Shown here: in pieces, positions 34,035 through 52,500 of the stretch
Layout: each line of letters begins with the position of its first letter
Numbering within the stretch: position 1 is the stretch's first letter
Source: Spiroplasma alleghenense
Lineage (GTDB): Bacteria; Bacillota_I; Bacilli_A; Mycoplasmatales; Mycoplasmataceae
Direction of reading: 5' to 3'
DNA length: 64,000 bases
NCBI RefSeq assembly: GCF_003363775.1
Contig: NZ_CP031376.1
Span: forward strand, 248,001 to 312,000
Made by a program: the position numbers and the translations under genes
The notes under the pieces: model-generated
The model's input: only the letters and a program-made list of their open reading frames with translations
Databases searched by the model: none
What the model was told of the DNA's origin: nothing

Positions 34035-37000
34035 ATGAAAAATTCACCAATCAAAGTTTATACAAAAAATTTAATTAAAGAAGCTAATGAAAATAGCAAT
34101 GATAAAGTTAGTTTAAAAGATATCAAATGACCAGTAAATGAACCGTGAAATGTTAACAATTCACGATATCAAAAATTGTACATTAGCTGAATGGACAAGG
34201 TTGAATTTCTTCATATCTTAAATAATAAAAATATTGCAAAAATTAAAATTCAAAATTTAAAAGTTAACCAATTAACCAGAATGCAAAACAATCATAATGA
34301 TATGGCGTATGCCGTTAATAAGATTGCTAAGTCATTAAAATTGGCTGACTCTTTTTTAATTGCCTATGTTGATTATGTAAATAGTATTTTTTCAGTTGGA
34401 AATGAAATGATTGCCACAACTGCAACTTATGTTAATCGCCGAGTGGCCTTCGAAGATATAAAAGGTCCAATTTATGAACCTGGTAAAATTTTATGTCATA
34501 AGTACCAAAAGGTTTATATTGATTGATTAGAATTAATTAATCAAATTAAGAAAATGAATAACTATAATTTAACCATGATTCGTCAGGGAAAATGGGAATT
34601 AATGAAAATTCGCCGCGAGTCATCGTTATATAACCAAAAAGTTAGCAAGGTAAATAGTATTGCAAGATACTTACAATTAGCTGACAATTTTATAGTTGCA
34701 AAAGTTGACTATTTAAATGAAGACTATATTAAAAAAGCCCAGATTGATAATACAGTTGTTTCTTCAAAAGAAGAAATTAAATTTAGAGAAATTATCGGAC
34801 CAATTTTTGATCCTTCAAGAGTTAATAACAGAAAGTACCAACGCCTATATTCTTACTGATTAGAAGAAATCAATAACTTGAAAATTATTCATAATCGTAA
34901 CATAGATTTAATCAGCGATGGATTGATTTCAGAAAGAAAAATTGAAAAACTTCAAAATGAATATAACTATTTGGTAAAAGATGTTAATGAATTATTTGAG
35001 GAATTAAAACTTGCAGATCGATACCGCGTTGCTCGTGTTAATTACTTTATTAATGTTTATGAGAAAAAATACTATCAAGAAGACGCTGGAGAAATGACTT
35101 ATAACGAGATTGATGTTAAAGAATCAGGAGTTCCATTCTTAACTGTTGATAAACCTCTAGAATTAGATTTATCAGAAAAAAATTATGTCGAAACAATGGA
35201 AGCTCAAGAAGTTGTTTACAAAAAAGTTATTAAAGACATTCAAGATACTCAAAAAGTTCTAGACGACTTTGTTAATTTTGAAGAATTTACAGAAGTACTT
35301 CAAGAACCTGAAGCAATTGTTGAAAATAAGACTAATGAAATAATCGAAGAAGATGTTGATGGTGAAGATTACACCGACTACACAATAACAGATGATGATT
35401 TTGATGTGACATTTCAAAATATTAATGATACAGTTGAAGGTAAACCTGTTCAAATCGAAGATACAAGTACAGCTAACTTCATTAAGGAGCATGCACTATT
35501 TGATTGAAATGGTCGACCAGTTTATAATGGTTTAAAAGAACAATTAATTGCGAGTCCAGAAATGAAAAAATTAAACATTAATAATGTTTATGACGAAGAT
35601 TTTCAACCTCTATTTAGTGATGACAAAGAACTTCCATACGGATACTCTTTATTTGATTGATTAGGCGATCAAGTTTATGATGAACTTGGTAATTTTATAG
35701 TGGAAGAAGTTAAAATTAAATTTGAAGACCAAAAACCAAAAACCAAAAAAGATGATACCCAATATATCAAATTTATTCCTCAACCAAAAGATCCAATAGG
35801 AACTAAACTTTATGACTGACATGGAAACCCGGTTTTTGATGCAGACGGAAAACAGTTGGAAACTGATGGAGTTAACGCCCAAATTCCAGAAACAGAAGTA
35901 TTTGATATCAATGGAGATCAATTTATTTTGGACGCTGAAAAACTTCCTTATACAAAAGCTTTATTCAATAAAAACGGATTTAAGTCACTTGATGTTTTAG
36001 AAGATGAAGAAAAACCCTCAACCCCAATAAAAGGAATTCCTGCAGCTGAATATTATGCACAAATAAAAGAATCATTACCAGTTAACTCAACTGAATTAGA
36101 AGTAATCGAAGAGGATATTGCATCTGTACCAGTTAAGCAAGAAGAGCCTTTAATAATAATCAAAAAACCATCTGGAAACAATGGAACGCTACTTTTTGAT
36201 AAAAATGGAAAATTAGTTTTTAATGAAAGCCGTGAACCTTTGGAATTTAGTGAAAACTTAGCTGCTCTAGACTATTCAGGTGTATTAAACAGCAATGGTA
36301 AACCTTTAACTAAGGCTAATAAATCAGACATTGAACTTTTTGATAGCCAAAGAAATCTTATTTTTGATAAGAATGGTTTTATAGTTGAGAAAGAACTCTC
36401 GATTCCAGACGAATTTAAAGAAGAAGTTAAATTCATTAAAAAGCCAATTAAGGAAGATGGAATTCTTTTATTTGACTGCAATAATAGCCCAGTATTTGAT
36501 AAAAATAAAAATCGTCTTTTATTGGATACAAAAATCCAAACATTAGATCCTAAAAATGTTTTTGATAGCAAGGGTAGAAGTATACTTAAGAATAAAGAAA
36601 ATCAAGTTTTTGGACTGGCTCTTTTTTCAGCTGACAAAGAGCAAGTATTTACAAGATCAGGAGAATTAATCTATAAAGATGTTTTGGTTGAATATCATGA
36701 TGATAATTTACAATCAATAAAATTAACTGAAGAAACTTTAGCAAACACTAGTAATTTAGAAAAACCAATTTTATTATTCGATAGAAACAATGAGCCTTTA
36801 TTTAATGAAGAGGGAGAACAATTGGTTGCAAATCCTGGATTTGAAAAAATTGATCCATCAAAAGTATTTAATGCAAAGGGTAAACCAGCATTTAAAAAAG
36901 AAAAGCATCCCGATCTTTCGGCTTTTGATCGTAATAAAAATCCAATATTTAATTCCGATGGAAATTTATTAGACGAACAAAAAACAATTTGCAGTTTACC

Positions 37001-40000
37001 AATTGAAGTAAATTCTAATTCTGAAAATGCTTCAGAAACCCTTGTTGAACCAAAAACGTTGGGCACAGAAAAAAAACTTGCTATGATTGGAACGCTGGTT
37101 TTTGATAAAAAAGGTCGACCAGTTTATGGCAAAAATAAAGAACAGTTTGTAATCGAAGAAAATATAAACTCTATTATTTACTCGAACTTATTTAACGAAA
37201 AATCTCAACCATTATTTAGTGAAAGTGAAATTAAAAAATCCGATTTATCTTTATATGATTTTAATAAAAATAAAATTGTAGACAGCGATGGGACACTGGC
37301 AGAAGTTAATATTAAAGAGATTTCAAAGCCAACCCCAGTTTTTGATATCGATGGTAATCAAATTTTTAATGCAAAAAAAGAACCATTACTTGTAAGGGAA
37401 AATAATATTAATGAAGTTATTTTAGAGAAAAAATTTGATAAAAAAGGTAAGCCTTTAAAATTGCAAGAAAACAAAAAAGCATTATTCACTAAAGAAGGAA
37501 GACAGATTGCTAATAAAAACGGGGAACCACTAAAAGAAAATATTAATCCAAACTTATTAAATAAAACTAATTTAGCTAATGGTACAACAGAGGGCACTAT
37601 TCAAACGACTGTTTTAGCCATGATCAGCGAACCCGTTGTTAAGGCTGGTACTCAATTATTTACCGAAAACCAAGAACCTGTGTTTACAAAAACTGGGGAA
37701 CCATTTATAACTGATGGTTCAATTTCTGCAATTCAAGAACCACTTTACAATAAAGACTTACAAATTTTGATTGACCCTTTAAATAATGAAAATAATAAAT
37801 CGCTGTTTGATAAAAATGGTAAGGAAGTTTTCACTAAGAAAGGTCAACCCGTTTTAGAAGTTAAAGAGATTGAAATTGTCGCCGAAGAAATTAAGACAAA
37901 AACTTCACAAAATGGAGAAGAAATTAAATATATTGAAAAACCAATTGTAAACTTAAACGAACAATTGTATTTAACTGACGGCACTCCGGTTTATAAAGAA
38001 GATGGGACCCCATTAACTTTACAAAAATCTGAAAAAAATTCACCAGAAAAAATATTTAACAAAAATAATAATCAAATAAAATACCCAGAAAATAAAAAAG
38101 TTTTAATTGATGAAAATGGATTAGTAGCCTTTGATGAAAATGGTAATTTAAAAGTTGCACAAATTACTTTAGAAGAAAAACCTGTAAATAAATTAAACGA
38201 TAAAAATAAATTAAACGATGAAAAAATTGCTAATATTTTAGAACCAAACTTTGAAAAACCCATTCTTGTTCAAAGGGAAGTCAAAACTCCAATTGCAAAA
38301 GAAGGAGAACCTTTATTTACCAAAACTGGTAAACCTGTTTATGATATAGATGGAAATCAATTATTAACAAGTAAATCGGATTTAAAAATAATTGATCCAG
38401 TTTTTGATAAAAAAGGAAATGTCATATTTAATCCAGAAGATTTAGAAACTGATAAATCTCTTTATAGTAAGAAGGGACAACAATTATTTGATAGAAACTT
38501 TGAAGCAGTTTGTGACACTCAAACTACTTCGTTTAATCCAGAAACTATTGAGACAAAAACCTTAGAAAATGGACAAATTATTGAAGTTGTTAAAACTCCA
38601 AACGTAGATGCAGACCAACAATTATTCTTAAAAGATGGAACGCCAGTCTACAACCAACTAGGAGAACCGCTTGTATCTAAACCAAATAATGAATTAATTG
38701 ATCAAAAATTATTCAACAAAAAAGGTAAAGATATCACCAGGGACATAGAAAAATCTAAAGACGGAAAAGTTTTATTTGATAAATTTGGAAAAGAAGCTTA
38801 CAGCGAAACAGGTCAAAGAATATTGAAAGAAGATATCCTTGGTAGTGTTGAACCAGAAAATGATATTCAGTTAAATAAAATTGATAAACCATTATCAGAT
38901 TCGAAAGTTTTAAATCATGAAGATGAAGAATTTATTGCGATAGTTAAAAGTCCGGTGGCTCCAACAGGAACACAGTTATTTACTAAAAACCAGGAACCTG
39001 TATTTAGTAAAAATGGTGAACCAATTATGACTGATGGACAATTGGCTAAAATTTCTGAAGTTCTTTACACAAAAAATGGTGAGGTATTATTTGCTCCCAC
39101 TGATGAAAGTACAGATAAATCATTATTTGATAAAAATGGTAGTCAGATTTATCAAGAAAATGGTAAACCTGTTTTAGAAAACAAAGAAGTAAAATTAAGA
39201 AGTCAAGATATCAAAATCAAGAAATTACCTTCGGGAGAAGAAATTAAATATATTGAAAAACCAATTGTAGAATTAAACGAACAATTGTTTTTAGCTGATA
39301 AAACCCCGGTTTATAATGCTGATAAAACCCCGCTGTTATTATCAAGTGAATTAAAGGCAGCTCCGGAAAAATTATTTACAATTTCAGGAAATGAAATAAA
39401 TAATAAGAATGAAAATCAAACTTTAGTTGATAGCAATGGTGTAGTTGTTTTTGATGAAAAAGGAAAGTTAAAAACAATTAAAGAGCCGATTACAAAAGTA
39501 ATTTCGGGTAAAAGTGATTTTGTAAGCGAAAATGAAAATAAAAATTTATCTCTTGAAAATGATTCAAACATGGTTTCTGAAAAAGATGAAAATGGATTTA
39601 TCGAGGAAGATGCACAAGATTACAAACAAGTAGAAGAAAGCGCTTCAAAAAACTTAGAACAAGTACCTCCAACTAAGGAATCATTTGACGAAAAAGAAAT
39701 TATAAATAAAGATAATTTGAGTGAAAATGATAAATATAGCTCAAATAAATTGCAAAAAAATGAAACAGTAATTGCTAAAGTTAAATCACCTGTTGCATTA
39801 GTAGGCACTCAGTTATTTACTAAAGACCAGGAACCAGTTTTTGATGAGAAAAATCAACCTGTTTTATTTAATGGAGATTTAGGAAAAGTTAATTATCCAA
39901 TTTATGATAAAAATAGACAGATTATATTTGCTCCTGACGATGAATCCATAGATAAATCATTATTTAACAATGTGGGTCAACAAGTATATAAGGATAACGG

Positions 40001-43000
40001 AAAGCCCGTTCTAGAAACAAAAGAAATTAAAGTTGATCCAGAAGAAATTAAAACTAAAGTTTTACCTAGTGGTGAAAAAGTCAATTATTTAGAGAAACCG
40101 ATTATTAATTATGGTGAACCCTTATTGCTAAAAGATAAAACCCCGGTTTATAATGCTGATAAAACTCCATTAATCTTTGATAAGCAACTTGCAATTGCTC
40201 CAGAAAAATATTATTCAGAAAATGGGAACTTAATTAGCAATCCTGATAATTCAAAAATTTTAACAAATGAAAAAGGTGTAACCGTTTTTGACGAAAAAGG
40301 AAAACTAAAAACTATTAAAGAACCTATTTTGGAAACAAAAACTGATTTATCTCAGCCAATTCAAAAATTTGAAAGACCAACTCAAACTACTGCAAAAATA
40401 AAAACAGCAGTTGTAGAGATGGGAACACCATTGTTCACAAAAGACTTGGAACCCGTTTACAAAGCGGATGGAAGTCAATTTACAACTGATGGAAAATTAG
40501 CAAAAATTTGAGAACCAGTTTATGACAAGGATTCTAAATTATTATTTGATCCAAAGGATGAAAAAATTGATAAATCATTATTCAGCAAGAATGGTGAACA
40601 AGTTTATAAACCAGACGGAAAACCTGTACTTCAAACTAAAGAAGTTGCTGTGAATACAGAAGAAATTAAAACTAAAACCTTATCTTCAGGACAAGAAATT
40701 AAATACATTGAAAAATCAGCTGTAGAATCAGGTAAACCATTATTGCTGAAAGATGGAACCCCGGTTTACAAAGTTGACGGACAACCATTGTTACAAAGTG
40801 ATATTTTAAAGCAGGCTCCGGAGATATACTATTCAAATGATGGTAGACAGGTAAAAAATATTGATAACACAAAAACTTTGGTTACCGAAAATGGGGTAAT
40901 TGCTTTTGACGAAAATGGAAAACTAAAAACTATTAAAGAACCAATTTCTGAAATTTTTGAGAAACCATTAGATTCAAAATTAGATAAATTAATTTCCTTA
41001 GATAATGAAAAACAAAACACTGATGAAATCATTGATAAATTTAATGATAATACTTTGAAAAAAGCACCAGTTGAAAAACTTGAACTATTCGAAGATGCAG
41101 CGTTTATTCAAGAAGAAGATAGTGATGATTTAGAAATTGAAATAAATGAATTTGATGATGATGAATTTGAAATTCATGAAGAAGAATTGGATTCAATGCT
41201 TGAAGAAGTTAAAGTGGAAAAAACTATTGAAGTACCAGTTGCCCCAATTGGAACTTTGCTTTACAACAAAGATAAGAAACCTGTTTATGACGCTTCAGGT
41301 AAGCAGATTATAATTTCAAAAAATAAAAATCCAATTATTGATGGTATCTATGATTCTAATAGAGAGTTAATATTTTCATCTAGCGATAGAGGTATTGACA
41401 AAACTTTATTTGATAATCAAGGTCGTCAAGTATTAAATAGCGATGGGAAATTAATAACCGAACCTAAAACTGTTTTAGTAAATCCTAGTGATATTAAAAA
41501 TAAAACTTTACCTAACGGAGAAGAAGTTGAAGTTTTCTCTACACCAAATGTTGAATCAGGAATTCCTTTATTCTTAAAAGATGGAACCCGAGTTTATGAC
41601 AAAAAAGGTGACCAATTAAAATCAACAGGAACAACCGAACCTTTAAGAACAGAAGTTTATAATAAAGACGGTCAAAACTTATTTAAAGATCCAAAAAATT
41701 ATCAAAATGGAAAATCATTATTTACCCAAGATCAAATTCCTGTTTACGATATTAGTGGTTCAGCCGTTTTAAATGATAACACGGTTTATCAACCAGAAGA
41801 TAAAAATATTTTAAATCCAGTTGAAAATAATTTAAGTCCTGCTCAAAAAGAAGAACCAGTTGTATTGGCAAAAGTCAAAACTCCGGTTGCTCCGGTTGGA
41901 ACACAATTATTCACCAAGAACCAAGAACCAGTAAAAACTGCAAGTGGAAAGCCATTGTTAACAGATGGACAGGTTTCAAGAATTAACCAACCAGTTTATG
42001 ACAATGTTGGTAAGTTGTTATTTACAGCTGATGATAAAAATTCTGACAAATCTTTATACGACAGCAAGGGCCAAAAAGTTTATTCTGAATCAGGTAAACC
42101 TGTTTTAGAAACCAAAGAAATTAAAGTTAGTCCCGAAGAGATCAAAGTTAAATCATTACCAAATGGAGAGAAGATTGAATATATCGAAACTCCAATTGTA
42201 GAATACGGAGAACCGTTATTCTTAAGTAATGGAAATCCAGTCTATAATTTAGATGGAACCCCATTGTTATTTAGCAAGGAGTTGAATAAAGCTCCAGAAA
42301 CTTTATATAATAGTCAAAGCGAGCCAATCAATAACTTTGCAGAATCAAAAGAACTAGTGGATAAAAAAGGTCAGCCAGTTTTTGATGATCAAGGTAAACC
42401 TAAAACTATCAAAAAACCTGTAACAGAAACTAAGACTATTAAAGAAACAGAAAAACCTGTAACAGAAAATAAAGCTATTAAAGAGGTTGAAACAACTAAA
42501 CCAATTGCTAAACCAATTATTATTGAAAAAATTGATGAGTCAATCTTAAAAACTGATGAATTAATTTTATTAGAACCAATTGTTGAAAGTGGAACTTTAT
42601 TATTTGATAAAAAAGGTGAACCAGTTTATGATGGCCAAGGAAATCAATTGACTGCAAAAAGTATTGATGAATCAATTGTTGAAGAAATGTTTGATGCAAA
42701 AGGGAAAAATCTAAATCCTAAATCAGATGATTTTGATAAAAAACCTCATTTATTTGACCAACAAGGTAATAAAGTAACTGATAGTTCTGGTGCTTTAATT
42801 GTGAAAGAATCAATTATCAGTGTTGATGAAATTGCGCAAAATAATCTTGACGATGAAGTGATTGAAGTGATTGTGGTTCCAGTAGCTAAAAATGGTACAA
42901 AGCTTTATACTAACGATAATAAACCAGTCTTCTATTCAAGTGGTCAACCAGTTAAAGCAGATGATAATTTAGTTGATTATGATTTCTCAGATATTTATAA

Positions 43001-43877
43001 CGCTGAGGGTGATTTGATTCTTGAAGAAAACGAAAATAAAGAACTGTTTGATTCTCAAGGGACTCAAGTAATTGAAGATGGTAAAATGATTAAGGTAAAA
43101 AGAGCTATTAGAAAAAAAGCTAAGGCTCAAAAAGATTTAAAAGCCAAAGAGAAAGCTCGAATCAAAGAAAACATCGATAAAGCTAATCGCGGGGAAAAAC
43201 CTGTTTTAAATAACTCAAATCTTAATAATGTGTTTGATGAAGCAAACTCAAGATTAGGGCAAATTAGAGAAGAGTTAAAACAAATTACCAATGATCAACT
43301 TGAAGATTCAAGACCAAAATCAGCATTTGACAAATTATCACCAGAATTTGAAGATGATTACAAAACTGATTATGATTTAATTGATTTTAATAATTCAAGA
43401 AGACGTCAAAAAGAATTTACAGATGACTTACAACCAATTCCGCAAATGAATCAAAATTTTGTGCCAAAACAAAATGGATTCTTTGATAAGATTGAAGATC
43501 GCATGAGTTCAATTGAAAACATGCTAGCTATTTTAACTCATCAAGAAAAAACTATGGACTCAGATCGAATTAGAATTTTGCGCGAAGACATTGAAAGAAT
43601 TTATTCAGACTTAAATAATATTAACTCTAGTGTTCCTAAGTTTGGTTATAACTCAAACCCAAACCGAAAAGCTAATGACTTTGATATTTGTGGATGTTCG
43701 CCAAACGGATGTGGTTCTCAAAAGAGAAAACACCATGTTTATAATGCAGGAAACAATAGTTCACAGCGTCACAATGACTTTAGAGTTGCTAACTTTAGTC
43801 ACCACCACAATTGCCACCATCAACAAAAAGATGGACGCCAATTTTGTGAACACTGTGGTAAAACCTATAAATATTAA
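34035..43877 (+). CDS. Giant repeat protein, putative cytoskeletal/scaffold
   Basis: A single frame of 3280 codons, intact with TGA as Trp (e.g. 40509-40511). AAAGGA lies 10 nt before ATG. There is no signal peptide, membrane helix or sortase motif, so it is probably intracellular. Layout: (1) residues ~45-380 hold three repeats of ~112 aa, each starting 'YQ[KR][LV]Y..W' at 45, 157 and 268; (2) an acidic stretch ~385-485; (3) ~488-3019, over 60 short units like 'LFDKNGKPVFD..G..L', nested in ~190-aa super-repeats; (4) a basic helical segment ~3020-3060, then Gln/Asn-rich linkers; (5) a Cys/His-rich tail (~3216-3280) with 'CGCSPNGCG' and 'CEHCGKTYKY', likely zinc-binding. No known family is recognised; terminal-organelle scaffold proteins are an analogy only. 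Confidence 0.9.
34167..35170 (+). repeat. Three N-terminal ~112-aa repeats of the giant protein
   Basis: Coding repeats begin at about 34167, 34503 and 34836. Each starts 'YQ[KR]xYxxW', has a helical stretch with 'LKLAD' or 'LQLAD' followed by 'AYVDY'/'AKVDY'/'ARVNY', and ends with 'GPIYEP'/'GPIFDP'-type sequence. They are diverged (an old duplication) and unlike the downstream short-unit array. Confidence 0.7.
35496..43092 (+). repeat. Short-unit repeat array with ~190-aa super-repeats
   Basis: The array is built of ~18-25-aa units of the form 'LF[DT]KNGxPV[FY]xxxGxxL'. From ~37630 the units are organised in super-repeats that begin 'VGTQLFTKNQEPVF', pass 'DKSLFDKNG', 'GKPVLETKE', 'GEEIKYIEKPI', 'LKDGTPVYNADGTPL' and 'APE', and end 'VFDEKGKLKTIKEP'. 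They start near 37630, 38287, 38953, 39790, 40408, 41236 and 41878, with shortened copies near 42580 and 42865. Confidence 0.85.
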
Positions 43878-44616: not shown

Positions 44617-44895
44617 GACTATGAGTGAAGCAATTTTGCACCAGCTAATTTGCAAAGTATCAATTTAACAAGTGATGACCAAGTTTACAAGGATAATATT
44701 TTTCCTTTTGAACCAAATAAAACAGCATATTGAATCAATATAAATAATTTTGGTTTTGGTTCTTATAGTGGAAGTCAGTATATAGAAACAAATGAAGCAG
44801 AAAGTACAATTGATGGAAAAATACAAAATGGTTGAAAACTCAAAGAAGAAACTAAAAAACTGTTTATGCAATTTCAATTCATAAACAGTTTTTAA
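44617..44895 (+). pseudogene. Left-end remnant of the duplicated surface-protein gene
   Basis: These 93 triplets have no start codon and match residues ~235-326 of the 326-aa surface protein at 46819-47799 almost exactly ('DYEWSNFAPANLQSINL' through 'LFMQFQFINSF'). The first half of the gene is missing: homology starts abruptly at GACTATGAG (44617), 15 bp after the preceding gene. It is what remains of a third, leftmost copy of the 2.9-kb repeat unit. The last 13 codons are formed by the terminator hairpin. Confidence 0.85.
44855..44893. terminator. Bidirectional terminator, unit 1
   Basis: A 14-bp perfect stem AAAAACTGTTTATG / CATAAACAGTTTTT with an 11-nt loop. It lies between the + strand remnant and the end of the - strand lipoprotein operon and is repeated 2904 bp further on. 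Confidence 0.85.
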
Positions 44896-44906
44896 GTATA
44901 TTGTTT

Positions 44907-45755
44907 TTAAATAATTCAAGTAGATTCTCAATTTTCAGTTTGACCATCTAAATTATCAAAGGTTGATGTGGCTGTAAAAGTTATTTTCATAAAATCAGTA
45001 CCATTAATTATTTCTCTAGTTTTAAATTCATTAACTTTTGAGGTGAAGAATAGTTCCTTATAAGGAAGCCCTAATGCGGAATCCTCTTTAGAATATAAAT
45101 CTAATTTTTCCTCTATTTTTAGTTTTGCTTCCTCAGTTTTACCGTCCTTGATTAATTCTTTTAATTCTTTTTGACTAGATTGGTATTCCCATGAAAAGGG
45201 ATTATTCTCACTATTTTCATACCCGTGATCATAGCTACTTAGCATGTAGTGAATTGTTTTTGAATCAATTTTACCATTTCTGTCTATTTTTTTTGTTTGA
45301 TTGAAAGTAAAATCAATGTCTTTATATTCATAAGTTTCTCCGCCTATTATATTTTTAATTTTTAAATCGAATTTAATTTTGTATTCTTGACCACTTTTAA
45401 AGGGTTTTTCACTATTAATTTTTTCATCAATATCTGAATGCACCCAAACTTGTCTGATACTTCAAACTTCATTTTCCGGATATTGAAAATCTTTAAACAT
45501 CATCTCAGATATAACATTTTTTATTTTCTCCGCAATCCTGTAACTTAATGAGGTTCATTCTTTTTTGTCACCTACTTCCCCATCAAATAAATAAAACTCT
45601 CCTAAATATTCAAATCTTTGTTCTTTTACTCAAGCATCTAAGTTTTCCGCATTTAATTCCATTTTTTTAACTGGTGTTTCAAAACAAGAAACTACTCCAG
45701 TTGTTGATGTTGTCACTAGTCCCAAAGCAGCCAATACGCTTAATAGTTTTTTCAT
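44907..45755 (-). CDS. Surface lipoprotein L1
   Basis: The 282-aa protein has a lipoprotein signal: 'MKKLL', a hydrophobic core and lipobox 'GVVSC' with Cys at 24. The mature part is charged. It starts 'FETPVKKMELNAENLDAWVK', contains 'SEKPFKSGQEYKIKFDLKI' and ends with the strongly kept 'GTDFMKITFTATSTF' and 'WESTWII'. Four paralogues (L1-L4) lie in two tandem pairs. AGAAGGA lies 5-10 nt before ATG. It is second in a - strand pair after L2 (78-bp gap) and ends at the bidirectional terminator. The function is unknown; a single-domain beta-rich binding protein is a guess. Many TGA codons are Trp. Confidence 0.88.
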
Positions 45756-45833
45756 AATTTTCCTTCTTTCCTATAAAATTTAAGCATTTAAATTAATAAT
45801 AATTTAAATTTATTATGTTTTTATTTAAATTAA

Positions 45834-46682
45834 CTAAATAATTCAAGTAGATTCTCAATCCTCAGTTTGGTTATTTAATTTTTCAAATGTTGATGTGGCT
45901 GTAAAAGTAATCTTCATAAAATCTGTTCCATCAATTACTTCTCTAGTTTTAAATTCATTAACTTTTGAGGTGAAATAAATTTCCTTATAAGGTAATTTAT
46001 CTGAATTCTTTCCGGTTGAATAGTAGTCTAGTTTATGTTCTATCACTTGTTTTGCTTCTTCAGTATTGCCAGTTTTTATAAGCTCTCTCAATTCTTTTTC
46101 CCCACTTTTGTACTTTCAAGAAAATGGATTACTTTCCTTATTTTCATAGCCGTCACAATTACTTAACATGTAATGAAGAGATTTTGAACTAATTTCATCC
46201 CTTTTTGTAAGTGTATTGGTCTGTTTAAAAGTAAATTCAAGCTTTTTGAATTCCAAGGTTTCCTTACTATTCAAATAGTTGACGTCTAGATCAAATTTAA
46301 ATTTATATTCATGTCCACTTTTAAAACGGTTCTGATCGTTTATTTGTTCTTTATAGTCGCTGTAACTTACACGAACATATAAGTCTATTAATTCTTTTTC
46401 TGGATATTCAAATGATTTTAGCATTGCTTCTGCAATAGTGTTTCTTATTTTATCCTTAAAAACCTCCATTAAAGAAACTCATTCCTGGTTTCCTTCCTCA
46501 TTTAAATCGTCAAATAAATAAAATTCTCCTACATATTCGAATTTTTGTTCCCTTACTCAGGCATCTAAGTTTTCGGTATTTAATTCCATTTTTTTAACTG
46601 GTTTTTCAAAACAAGAAACTACCCCAGTTGTTGATGTTGTTATTATCCCCAAAGCAGCCAGTATGCTTAATAGTTTTTTCAT
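45834..46682 (-). CDS. Surface lipoprotein L2 (divergent paralogue)
   Basis: The 282-aa lipoprotein has the same layout as L1: 'MKKLLSILAALG', lipobox 'GVVSC' (Cys24), conserved 'NLDAWVREQKFEYVGEFYLF' and the common end 'GTDFMKITFTATSTF'. The middle (~80-190) is clearly more different from L1, L3 and L4 than they are from each other (e.g. 'NTLTKRDEISSKSLHYML' against 'KKIDRNGKIDSKTIHYML'). It ends with TAG, while L1 and L3 end with TAA. It is transcribed divergently from the 326-aa surface protein and is first in the pair with L1. Confidence 0.88.
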
Positions 46683-46818
46683 AATTTTCCTTCTTTCCTT
46701 ACTATTATTATAGTAAACTAATTTTTCGCTTTTTAGAAAAAAAATTAAATTTTTTCCATATATTTATTTATTTTTTAGAAAATTGGAATATAATGTTTTT
46801 GTATAAAGGAGAAAAATT
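46683..46818. promoter_or_regulatory. Divergent promoter region, unit 1
   Basis: These 136 bp separate L2 (-) from the surface gene (+). On the + strand TATAAT (46789-46794) lies 24 nt before the start, with AAAGGAG as ribosome site. On the - strand a TATAAT-like box lies about 25-30 nt before the L2 start. The sequence is almost identical at 49590-49725, so both units should be regulated alike. Confidence 0.6.
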
Positions 46819-47799
46819 ATGAAAAAAAATAACACTCTTAGAAAACAAAAAAATACGAAACTTTATAATAAACACATATTTACATCATTTTTTATGGTTT
46901 CAGTAATAGCGATCGGAGCTTTGGTTGCAATTCCAAAAACTACACAACAATTATTCAATTTCGAAGGAATTAACTTTGGTAGTCAATCTGAAGCTGTTGA
47001 ATACGCACTTTCAAATAGTCGCAGACTAGAATCAAATGATCGTAACTATTATTACAAATATAACAATAAGGTTTATTCATTTTCAGAAAGAAATGCTGTA
47101 ATTGACAAAATGATTTTAGACTCTCAACTTAGAGAAGAAAGTACTTATAAAAATGTAAATGATTATGTAATTTCAAATTCTGGGGAGTTGTCAGCCAATG
47201 TAAAAACCGAGAATAACGATGAACTTAAGAAAGTTTATAAGGGAAGAAATGGATTTTCTTATGTTGATATAGATGAAGCAGCCAGAACTTTTCAAAATTA
47301 TGATGAAGTAATTTTGATGGAAAATCTCAACAAAAATTCTACTGAACAATTAGAATTTTATAATGAAAGCGAGGCTATTCAGTATTTAGAAAATATGAAA
47401 AAAGAATCTCTTGATAATGGTGAAGAAAGTGACTGTTATTTGGTTTCTGGTTCATGCCAAGATGAAGGAGCTGTTAAGCAATGATTGAAAAGTAGCTCTA
47501 CTTATAAATATCGTTATAAAGACTATGAGTGAAGCAATTTTGCACCAGCAAATTTGCAAAGTATTAATTTAACAAGTGATGATCAAGTTTACAAGGATAA
47601 TATTTTCCCTTTTGAACCAAATAAAACAGCATACTGAATTAATATTAATAATTTGGGTTTTGGTTCTTATAGTGGAAGCCAATATATAGAAACAAATGAG
47701 GCAGAGGCCACAATTGATGGAAAAATACAAAAAGGATGAAAACTTAAGGAAGAAACTAAAAAACTGTTTATGCAATTTCAATTCATAAACAGTTTTTAA
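46819..47799 (+). CDS. Truncated copy of the large surface protein (326 aa)
   Basis: Residues 1-18 are basic, then one hydrophobic signal-anchor (~20-41, 'FFMVSVIAIGALVAI'), then an exported polar domain. Several units of the form 'Y.YNNKVYSFSERNAVIDKM' occur, the module also seen in the downstream large proteins. Up to residue ~314 it is almost identical to the 924-aa protein at 49726. There ('KLKEETK') it runs into the bidirectional terminator, which adds 12 unrelated codons ('KLFMQFQFINSF') before TAA. It has an intact promoter and ribosome site, so a short exported form is probably made, but it is a rearrangement product. Confidence 0.8.
47759..47797. terminator. Bidirectional terminator, unit 2
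   Basis: Same 14-bp stem as at 44855-44893. It supplies the last codons and the TAA of the truncated surface protein and ends the L3 transcript on the other strand. Confidence 0.85.
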
Positions 47800-47810
47800 G
47801 TATATTTTTT

Positions 47811-48662
47811 TTAAATAATTCAAGTAGATTCTCAATCTTCGGTTTGACCATCTAACTTATCAAAGGTTGATGTGGCTGTAAAAGTAATCTTCATAAAATC
47901 AGTACCATCAATTATTTCTCTAGTTTTAAATTCATTAACTTTTGAGGTGAAGAGAAGTTCCTCATAAGGAAGTCCTAGACTTGCATCGTATTCATCAGAA
48001 TATAAATCTAAGTCATCTTTTATTTTTAACTTTGCTTCCTCAATTTTACCATCCTTTATTAATGATTTTAATTCTTTTTGATCGGGTTTATATTTCCAAG
48101 AAAATGGGTTATTTTCATCATTTTCATACCCATGATCATAACTACTTAACATATAGTGAATTGTTTTTGAATCAATTTTACCATTTCTGTCTATTTTTTT
48201 TGTTTGATTAAAAGTAAAATCAATGTCTTTATATTCATAAATTTTACCGTCAATAATATTTTTAATTTTTAGATCAAATTTAAATATGTATTTTTGACCA
48301 CTTTTAAAAGGTTTCTCGCTATTAATTTTTTCTATTAAATCATCATAATCTACCGACACCTTTATGTTTAAAACTTCATTTTGTGGATATTCAAAAGATT
48401 TAAGCATCATTTCCGATATAACATTTTTTATTTTTTCTGCAATTCTAGAATCCAATCACAACCATTCTTTACTTTCTCCTTCTACACCGTCAAAAAAATA
48501 AAATTCTCCTATATATTCAAATTTTTGTTCTTTTACTCAAGCATCTAAGTTTTCGGTATTCAAATCCATTTTTTTAACTGGTGTTTCAAAACAAGAAACT
48601 ACTCCAGTTGTTGATGTTGTCACTAGCCCCAAAGCAGCCAATACGCTCAATAGTTTTTTCAT
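47811..48662 (-). CDS. Surface lipoprotein L3
   Basis: The 283-aa lipoprotein is the positional copy of L1, 2.9 kb further on, with signal 'MKKLLSVLAALG', lipobox 'GVVSC' (Cys24) and a mature chain close to L1 ('FTFNQTKKIDRNGKIDSKTI', 'HYMLSSYDHGYEN'). One residue is gained near 'YDASLGLPYEE'. Differences from L1 concentrate at ~70-110 and ~195-215, so these are the likely variable surface segments. It ends next to the bidirectional terminator. It is second in a - strand pair after L4. Confidence 0.88.
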
Positions 48663-48740
48663 AAATTTCCTTCTTTCCTATAAAATTTAAGCATTGCAAT
48701 TAATAATAATTTAAACTTATTATGTTTTTATTTAAATTAA

Positions 48741-49589
48741 CTAAATAATTCAAGTAGATTCTCAATCTTCAGTTTTACCATCTAAATTATAAAAAGTTGA
48801 TGTGGCTGTAAAAGTTATTTTCATAAAATCAGTACCATCAATTATTTCTCTAGTTGTAAATTCGTTAACTTCTGAGGTAAAATAAAATTCCTTATAAGGT
48901 AAACGGAACGCTGATTTTTCTGTAGAATATAAATCTAATTCCTCCTTTATTAATGCTTTTGCTTCTTCAGTTTTACCTTCCTTAATTAATGATTTCAATT
49001 TTTTTTGACTAGATTGATATTTCCAAGAAAACGGGTTACCTTTATCATTTTCATACCCGCGATCATAGTTACTTAGCATATAGTGAATGGTTTTTGAATC
49101 TAGTTTTTCGTTTCTATCTATTTTTTTTGTTTGATTAAAAGTAAATTCAATGTCTTTATATTCATGGGTTTCTCCACCTAATATATTTGTGATTTTTAAA
49201 TCAAATTTAAATTTATATTCTTGACCACTTTTAAAAGGTTTTTCGCTATTAATTTTTTCCTTAAAATCTTTATAATCGTCTGAAACTCTTATGTTCAAAA
49301 CCTCGTTGCCTGGATATTCAAATGATTTAAACATCATTTCTGATATAACATTTTTTATTTTATACCCAATGATATTACTTAATAATGGTCATTCATCTTT
49401 GTCGCCTACCACCCCATCGAAAAAATAAAATTCTCCTACATATTCAAATTTTTGCTCTTTTACTCAGGCATCTAAGTTTTTGGAATTTAATTCCATTTTT
49501 TTAACTGGAGTTTCAAAACAAGAAACTACCCCAGTTGTTGACGTTGCTACTAGCCCTAAAGCAGCCAATGTGCTTAATAGTTTTTTCAT
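48741..49589 (-). CDS. Surface lipoprotein L4
   Basis: The 282-aa lipoprotein is the positional copy of L2 but in sequence closer to L1 and L3: it keeps 'NQTKKIDRNEKLDSKTIHYM' and 'YENDKGNPFSWKYQSSQK', where L2 differs. This mismatch between position and similarity suggests gene conversion. Signal 'MKKLLSTLAALG' and lipobox 'GVVSC' (Cys24) are kept, with ATG at 49587-49589 and AGAAGGA 5-10 nt upstream. It is divergent from the full-length surface gene and is first in the pair with L3. It stops at TAG like L2. Confidence 0.88.
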
Positions 49590-49725
49590 AATTTTCCTTC
49601 TCTCATTACTATTATTATATTAAACTAATTTTTCGCATTTCAGAAAAAAAATTAAATTTTTTCCATATATTTATTTATTTTTTAGAAAAATGGAATATAA
49701 TGTTTTTGTATAAAGGAGAAAAATT
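49590..49725. promoter_or_regulatory. Divergent promoter region, unit 2
   Basis: Near-identical to 46683-46818. The + strand TATAAT is at 49696-49701, 24 nt before the 924-aa gene, with AAAGGAG before ATG. A - strand TATAAT-like box serves L4. Confidence 0.6.
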
Positions 49726-52500
49726 ATGAAAAAAAATAACACTCTTAAAAAACAAAAAAATATGAAACTATATAATAAACACATATTTACATCATTTTTT
49801 ATGGTTTCGGTAATAGCAACCGGTGCTTTGGTCGCAATTCCAAAAACTACACAACAATTATTCAATTTTGAAGGAATTAACTTTGGAAGTCAATCTGAAG
49901 CTGTGGAGTATGCGCTTTCAAACAGTCGAAAACTGGAATCAAGTGATCGTAACTATTATTACAAATATAACAATAATGTCTATTCATTTTCAGAAAGAAA
50001 TGATGTCATTGATAAAATGATTTTAGATTCTCAACTTAAGGAAGAAAGTACTTACAAAAATGTAAATGATTATGTAATTTCAAATTCTGGGGAGTTATCA
50101 GCAAATGTAAAAACCGAGAATAACGGTCAACTTAAAAAAGTTTATAAAGGAAGAAATGGATTTTCTTATGTTGATATAGATGAAGCGGCTAAAACTTTTC
50201 AAAATTATGATGAAGTAATTTTAATGGAAAATCTCAATAAAAATTCAACTGAACAATTAGAATTTTATAATGAAAGCGAGGCTATTCAGTATCTAGAAAA
50301 TATGAAAAAAGAATCTCTTGAAAATGGCGAGGAAAGTGATTGTTATTTGGTCTCTGGTTCATGCCAAGATGAAGGAGCCGTCAAACAATGATTAAAAAGT
50401 AGTTCAACTTACAAATATCGCTACAAAGACTATGAGTGAAGCAATTTTGCACCAGCCAATTTGCAAAGTATTAATTTGACAAGTGATGATCAAGTTTACA
50501 AGGATAATATTTTCCCTTTTGAACCAAATAAAACAGCATATTGAATCAATATTAATAATTTGGGTTTTGGTTCTTATAGTGGAAGCCAATATATAGAAAC
50601 AAATGAGGCAGAAGATACAATTGATGGAAAAATACAAAAAGGATGAAAACTCAAAGAAGAAACTAAAATCAATGCGTTATTATCTTCAATGATGTTTATG
50701 TCGGAAATGTACAATGGCTTGGATTCATTGACAAGGGCTCTAAACGATAAAACAGAGGCTTGGACTCTCGAAAAAGACGTTTTCAATAACAACACAGATG
50801 AGTTTAACTTTTTTAAAGAAAACGTTGCAAATCTTGCGGATATAGATTTAGAAGCAGATGATGACGGGCTTAATTTAAAAAAATTTGAAGATGAAATTAA
50901 TTCCAAAGCCAAGGACATGGATTCTCAAACTAAAACTCTAGTATTTTTTAGAAAATTATCAAATTTGTCTTTGGTAAAAAATAATTTAGGTTCAGATGGC
51001 AAAGATGGAGACATGCAAAAGTTTGAAGATGAATGCAAAAAAGTTTTAAAACAAGTAATTACCTCAGATGATGAAAGAATGGAAGAAATTTATGCTGAAT
51101 TATTTGATATAAACAATCCAAAAATTGGTGTTAACGATATTATCGATGTCTTTCTAAATCCTAGCAGTTTTCAATATAAAAAAGATGACACAAGATTAGC
51201 TTTTGTTAATGTTATTAAAAAAACTACTGAACTAGGAGATGCCATTATGAATCCGATGTCTGGTTTAGATGGATTGGTAAGCAAATACTACGATGCAAAA
51301 GGTAGACCAAAAGATGTAGAAGTAACTTACGAAGATAAATTAACAATTGTAGAAGCCCAAAATCAAGTAATCAAAAATAAATATAAAGAATCTGATATGA
51401 TACTTCTTGATGATGGTAATTTTTATTCTAGAGAAAAAGTTATTGAAAAAAATTATGAAAGAACAAACGATATTGCGATAACTGCTGAGAGAAAAATTAC
51501 AACAACAAAACCGGCTGCAAAAGCGGGATTAGAAAATTTAACTGGTAAATTTAATACTGCTCAACAAATTTGGGATTTGGGAAACAAATTATCACCATAT
51601 AAATACAAAACACTAGGAATTGATTTTGGTGATGGACAAGAAATTTTATATACTTACTTATCAATTGGCTATTTTGGTTGAGAATTACATAAACCAAGTC
51701 CGGGAAAAGCTCTAACTAAAATGAAGTTATACGATAGTGTTAATACAAATCAAAATGAAAGTGGTTTTAGAGTTAGAGGAAGCTACTTTACGAACCAAAT
51801 AGATGCAATAAATTATTTGAAAACTCTAATGATTCGCGATCCAGAGGAGTATACCGAAATCCAACAGTTTAATATTAGTATCATGGACAAAACTGAAGAA
51901 GGGATTATAAATAACGATACTGAAAATTATCTTTCAAAAGAGGAACAGTTAGATATTTTCATAGATCAAATCTTTCAAAAATACTATGCTAATATGAAAC
52001 AAAAGTATTTCACAGATGGATTTGGAAACAAATTTGACAATAGTATTGATGCTTTAAATAGCATGCGTGAAAACATTACAAAAAGAAATTTTGTTAAAAA
52101 ATATCAGTGAAAAGATAAAGATTCCATCAAACGAAACTATGATTCTTTTGAAGAAATGATTACAGTTCAAAATAATTATATTAAAAATACTTACATTAAT
52201 GAAAAAGTAGTTTTATCAAGTGATTTAATCGCCAATACCAACTTTGATAAATTAGATGCCCAAAATGGAGGACAAAATAAATTTTACTCAATTGTTGATG
52301 GGTCAAGACAAAGATACTTTAAAACCTATGATGATGCTTATTATTTTGTTTTAAGAAAAAATAATTTTGAGTTAAATATTGACGAAGTAGTTAACTATCA
52401 AATAACTTATAACGGAGAAGTATTTGCCTCAGAAGAAGAATTTATCAACTGAGTTAGAGAAAATACTAAAGTAGTAAACGGAAAGGAAATGGTGCATTAA
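49726..52500 (+). CDS. Large exported repeat-module protein (924 aa)
   Basis: A basic N-terminus and one signal-anchor (~20-41, 'FFMVSVIATGALVAI') precede a long exported chain. Short modules of ~25 aa recur, with an aromatic beta-hairpin and then S/T-x-x-E-A and a helix: 'FGSQSEAVEYAL', 'VYSFSERNDVIDKM', 'FYSREKVIEKNYER', 'YFTNQIDAINYLKTL', 'YFKTYDDAYYFVL' and 'VFASEEEFINWV'. Residues ~315-640 are a more acidic helical domain without modules. There is no LPxTG or lipobox. The first ~314 residues are duplicated in the truncated copy upstream. Several TGA are Trp. The gene is followed after 1 bp by another module protein and then a membrane protein, suggesting one surface complex. The family is not recognised. 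Confidence 0.85.

Follow-up and report, generated by a model that had tools for sequence, protein, structure and literature searches.

The 64,000-nt stretch analysed here (the window) comes from the genome of Spiroplasma alleghenense PLHS-1T, which is 1,336,077 bp long (PMC6486257); the genome sequence used here is one contig of the same length. The locus under study contains two pairs of lipoprotein genes, a full-length surface gene (SurfFull), a short version of it (SurfShort) and a left remnant of it, followed by the partner gene P700 and a membrane protein gene (Table 1). Reading frames were translated with genetic code 4 (TGA = Trp), under which the genes are open throughout.

Table 1 Features of the surface-gene locus, with positions in the window.
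Feature	Position	Strand	Remarks
p217, left flanking gene, 217 aa	43948..44601	+	Neighbour of the giant repeat gene, conserved as such in the two related species
Left remnant of surface gene, codons 235-314	44617..44856	+	Lacks a start
Hairpin copy 1, at fusion point	44851..44897	+	-16.6 kcal/mol, z -6.0; likely bidirectional terminator between convergent genes
Lipoprotein A1, 282 aa	44907..45755	-	LP_plasma signal 30.3 bits (cut-off 24)
Lipoprotein B1, 282 aa	45834..46682	-	Divergent middle
Divergent intergenic region copy 1	46683..46818	.	130/136 bases same as copy 2
SurfShort, 326 aa	46819..47799	+	Surface codons 1-314 plus 12 codons into terminator
Hairpin copy 2, at fusion point	47755..47801	+
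Lipoprotein A2, 283 aa	47811..48662	-
Lipoprotein B2, 282 aa	48741..49589	-
Divergent intergenic region copy 2	49590..49725	.
SurfFull, 924-aa surface protein	49726..52500	+	Single N-terminal membrane anchor (residues 20-38)
P700 partner gene, 5' part, 272 aa	52502..53320	+	Interrupted
IS3-family element within P700	53302..54518	-	Ends TAGAATGAACCC; target duplication CTAT
P700 3' part, 407 aa	54566..55789	+
Polytopic membrane protein, 468 aa	55779..57185	+	Module's fourth gene; ~9 hydrophobic segments

On the left, at 34035-43877, lies the gene for a giant 3280-aa protein with repeats such as LFDKNGKPVYD and a zinc-ribbon-like C-terminal tail. This protein matches the Pfam beta-flower family PF21784 above the cut-off (E 8.6e-07) and has a 2305-aa relative in genome G002. 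On the right, the IS3-family element splits P700, whose intact relatives are single ORFs of ~690-705 aa, into two pieces. The insertion is recent, since two further copies of the element in the genome are 100% identical to it. The C-terminal part of its transposase is a 195-aa ORF, which may be frameshifted or expressed by programmed frameshifting.

The sequence GACTATGAG occurs three times in the window (44617, 47521 and 50428; 0.22 occurrences expected), at spacings of 2904 and 2907 bp. Units 44617-47520 and 47521-50427 are 85% identical over their full length with nine gap columns, and the third copy is homologous from 50428 as far as 50667, which is surface codon 314. The units are thus arranged head to tail, homologous end to end and joined at a common junction, so that the three equivalent points marked in the first-pass annotation represent a true tandem segmental duplication. 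In the gene maps under code 4, the content of each unit agrees with the composition that the annotation had proposed: a terminator and a pair of minus-strand lipoprotein genes, then a divergent intergenic region of 136 bp that leads into the 5' portion of the surface gene, its first third. A promoter scan scored no better than shuffled sequences. Elsewhere in the genome, the repeat unit matches distant paralogues only. Exact matches reach no more than 62 bp in the comparison of units 1 and 2, and 65 bp when unit 2 is compared with the third copy. Given the latter value and the dS of 0.33 in the surface part, we judge the units to be old rather than young.

All four lipoproteins match the Mollicute lipoprotein signal NF038029 (LP_plasma) above its cut-off over residues 1-24, ending in the lipobox Cys. 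They match the spiralin and MOLPALP families in the signal peptide only, scoring 24-27 bits where the cut-offs are 65 and 140, and a structure model (pLDDT 68) had no PDB match at E <= 0.001. The signal and C-terminus are alike in all four, whereas the middles are divergent, and B1 is the outlier with 119 sites of its own. Their dN/dS values are 0.24-0.41. Silent divergence is lower at the gene ends than in the middles (A1/A2 Fisher p 0.0005). The first-pass annotation had suggested aligning the units to map conversion tracts. A run test of A1/A2 over all sites identified one long tract of common polymorphism (alignment nt 458-509; none of 2000 permutations had one as long), and the lipoproteins showed no other clear recombination tract. 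However, the same test on silent sites alone found no tract, and a scan along the four lipoproteins for a switch of tree signal was not significant.

SurfShort is an intact, open 326-aa ORF. It differs from SurfFull by 51 silent and 13 replacement changes (dS 0.33, dN 0.018, dN/dS 0.05). When the changes were polarised with the two related species, G001 and G002, 10 silent and six replacement changes fell on the SurfShort branch (p 0.0003 versus neutrality). SurfShort also retains the promoter region, with the intergenic identity to SurfFull given in Table 1, as well as a ribosome-binding site and a start codon. It is an open gene for a predicted anchored N-terminal domain that appears to have evolved under constraint; its expression and any role of the short protein we infer. 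A structure prediction from two sequences gave pLDDT 32, too low to be of use. The left remnant seems to have been constrained until recently, because its unique changes are mostly silent (eight silent, three replacement). It should be noted that the third-position excess is also present in the stop-carrying short copies of G010 and G065. The constraint on SurfShort may therefore belong to the past, either before the duplication, if the join was between diverged alleles, or to a full-length stage.

The Spiroplasma module of lipoprotein(s), Surf, P700 and membrane protein is so far undescribed. Surf relatives were found in 25 of the 60 genomes searched within the family (one genome per species). 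In the gene maps read, P700 follows Surf at intact loci, and the membrane protein and lipoproteins are nearby at most loci. The order is lipoprotein-Surf-P700-membrane protein for the 920-aa kind and membrane protein-Surf-P700-lipoprotein for several shorter kinds. Neither Surf, P700 nor the membrane protein had a match above the curated cut-offs in Pfam, NCBIfam or PHROGs, the PHROGs matches being weak ones of unknown function, and the Surf profile had no match among PDB sequences. A MIB-MIP-like system was considered for the pair of large surface proteins, and no NCBIfam match was found.

Duplications of a lipoprotein together with the N-terminal part of Surf (SurfN) also occur elsewhere. 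Tandem repeats of this type were found at a paralogous locus of the S. alleghenense genome (L042, the 344-kb locus) and in G028 and G010, and dispersed cassettes in G065 and G071; G001 has a short surface gene near p217. Tandem repeats of lipoprotein genes alone were found in G002, G030 and G071. The short ORFs are intact in G001 and G028 and broken in G010, G065, G071 and the 344-kb locus. The breakpoints of the four tandem loci are at codons ~263-317, close to where the conserved N-terminal region ends; four uniform breakpoints would fall that close with a chance of ~0.001, provided that they are independent. In S. alleghenense, G028 and G010, each short copy has its closest relative in the full gene of its own locus; that of the G001 short gene is the full gene at the S. 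alleghenense 344-kb locus.

We consider it probable that the array is an old tandem segmental duplication within the four-gene surface module, in which duplication of the lipoproteins recurs and SurfN is carried along. An illegitimate join via AAAA microhomology would have linked codon 314 of the surface gene with the lipoprotein operon's terminator. Homologous unequal exchange would then have multiplied the units to three or more, and most of the leftmost one would have been lost through a deletion beside p217. This follows the first-pass annotation, which proposed a single fusion, later amplified, with partial deletion of the leftmost copy. It is the simplest reading, because both the left remnant and unit 1 have the same join of codon 314 to the hairpin. 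The age of the fusion is not certain, since the join could have been brought in on a conversion tract: the hairpin and the adjoining lipoprotein end are 95-98% identical between copies, above the surface stretch just before. The main outcome would be two lipoprotein pairs that diverge from each other, both served by their own copy of one divergent promoter region, with the surface fragment hitch-hiking and its N-terminal domain sometimes kept. Similar duplications recur at related loci of other spiroplasmas, suggesting that the locus evolves by repeated copying; duplication of lipoprotein plus Surf N-domain would have arisen repeatedly at other loci and in other species, with frequent decay of the short copy there. 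The likely effect would be a gain in the number and variety of surface lipoproteins on an evolutionary time scale rather than fast switching.

Alternatively, SurfShort may be a dedicated functional protein for which the duplication was kept, for example as a free N-domain partner of the new lipoprotein pair. The low dN/dS, the constrained short branch, the intact short ORFs in G001 and G028 and the position of the breakpoints close to the limit of N-terminal conservation all speak for this possibility. However, short copies are broken in three other genomes and at the 344-kb locus of the same genome, and we regard a dedicated role as tentative. A broader version, in which an undescribed four-component surface system recurrently duplicates lipoprotein plus Surf-N cassettes and the free N-domain acts as an adaptor for additional lipoproteins, is a speculation that we think unlikely to hold.

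The number of duplications is a separate question. A few ancient lipoprotein plus SurfN duplications, rather than many separate ones, could also explain the clustered breakpoints and the similarity within loci, if gene conversion kept the short copies like their neighbours. Adjacent direct repeats can convert, and the reduced silent divergence at the lipoprotein ends fits such homogenisation. However, the lipoprotein orientation, and hence the junctions, is unlike between this genus and G028/G010, which demands at least two origins of the duplication, and we consider it rather doubtful that so few events account for the pattern.

The first-pass annotation also stated that such arrays can expand, contract and vary surface antigens. 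In an active array of this type, the units would expand, contract and exchange sequence and so alter the expressed surface proteins. Direct tandem repeats, the A1/A2 tract, conserved gene ends with divergent middles and one past loss at the left end of the array are compatible with this idea. However, the units differ by 15%, share no identical stretch above 65 bp, and show split patterns along the lipoprotein genes without a significant switch. Promoter regions and start codons are present at both lipoprotein pairs, which hence do not follow a silent-cassette logic, and SurfShort keeps expression signals, unlike the partial copies of silent-cassette systems, which lack them and donate sequence to one expressed gene. 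In addition, the known hosts are insects (scorpion flies), which have no antibody-based immunity. Beyond the presence of repeats, the claim of antigen variation thus finds no support, and we consider an active array of this type improbable. That the array is an assembly artefact is hardly credible: the genome was assembled from short reads (211+126 and 2x300 bases, plus mate pairs; PMC6486257), but ~15% of positions differ between units, and the reads and mate pairs span the longest repeated identity.

To our knowledge, no piece of an adjacent large surface gene has been duplicated along with the lipoprotein genes in the lpl cluster of Staphylococcus aureus. That cluster, in an unrelated organism, resembles the array in having lipoprotein paralogues in tandem (PMC4470592). 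Among Mollicutes, Mycoplasma mycoides subsp. mycoides SC carries IS-flanked tandem repeats of 8-24 kb with surface lipoprotein genes and truncated genes in the copies; at least one of these repeats differs from strain to strain and disappears upon passaging (PMC1798306). In contrast, the S. alleghenense units are 2.9 kb long, old and diverged, with no IS at the unit borders. Partial surface-gene copies also lie beside a full one at vlsE of Lyme Borrelia (PMC11499132) and in the MgPa repeats of Mycoplasma genitalium (PMC2169797), where they are donors for frequent conversion. These systems differ from the array, because in the array the partial copy is equipped with a promoter region, a ribosome-binding site and a start of its own and has steadily diverged.

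The locus documents the build-up of surface lipoprotein diversity in a wall-less insect symbiont, in which one segment has been repeatedly copied in tandem and a by-product gene, SurfShort, may be recruited. Since its four components remain together in permuted order, the module, for which the searched family libraries offer no named match, is a testable candidate for a surface complex.

Further repeats were observed near other Surf genes. In the same genome, at ~616.5-623 kb (L067, 6482-13150), a second tandem duplication involves a shorter Surf paralogue in 3.3-kb units that are 94.7% identical, closer than those of the window array. A module duplication in another species is seen in G071 (L078, 1-12302), where a 4.8-kb direct repeat of 88.5% identity includes a Surf gene and lies beside P700 and lipoproteins. 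At L068 (2450-3614), three tandem, near-identical ORFs of ~106-122 aa (METTKQALILFGVEDNKPKIWLS) are located upstream of another Surf-P700 pair.
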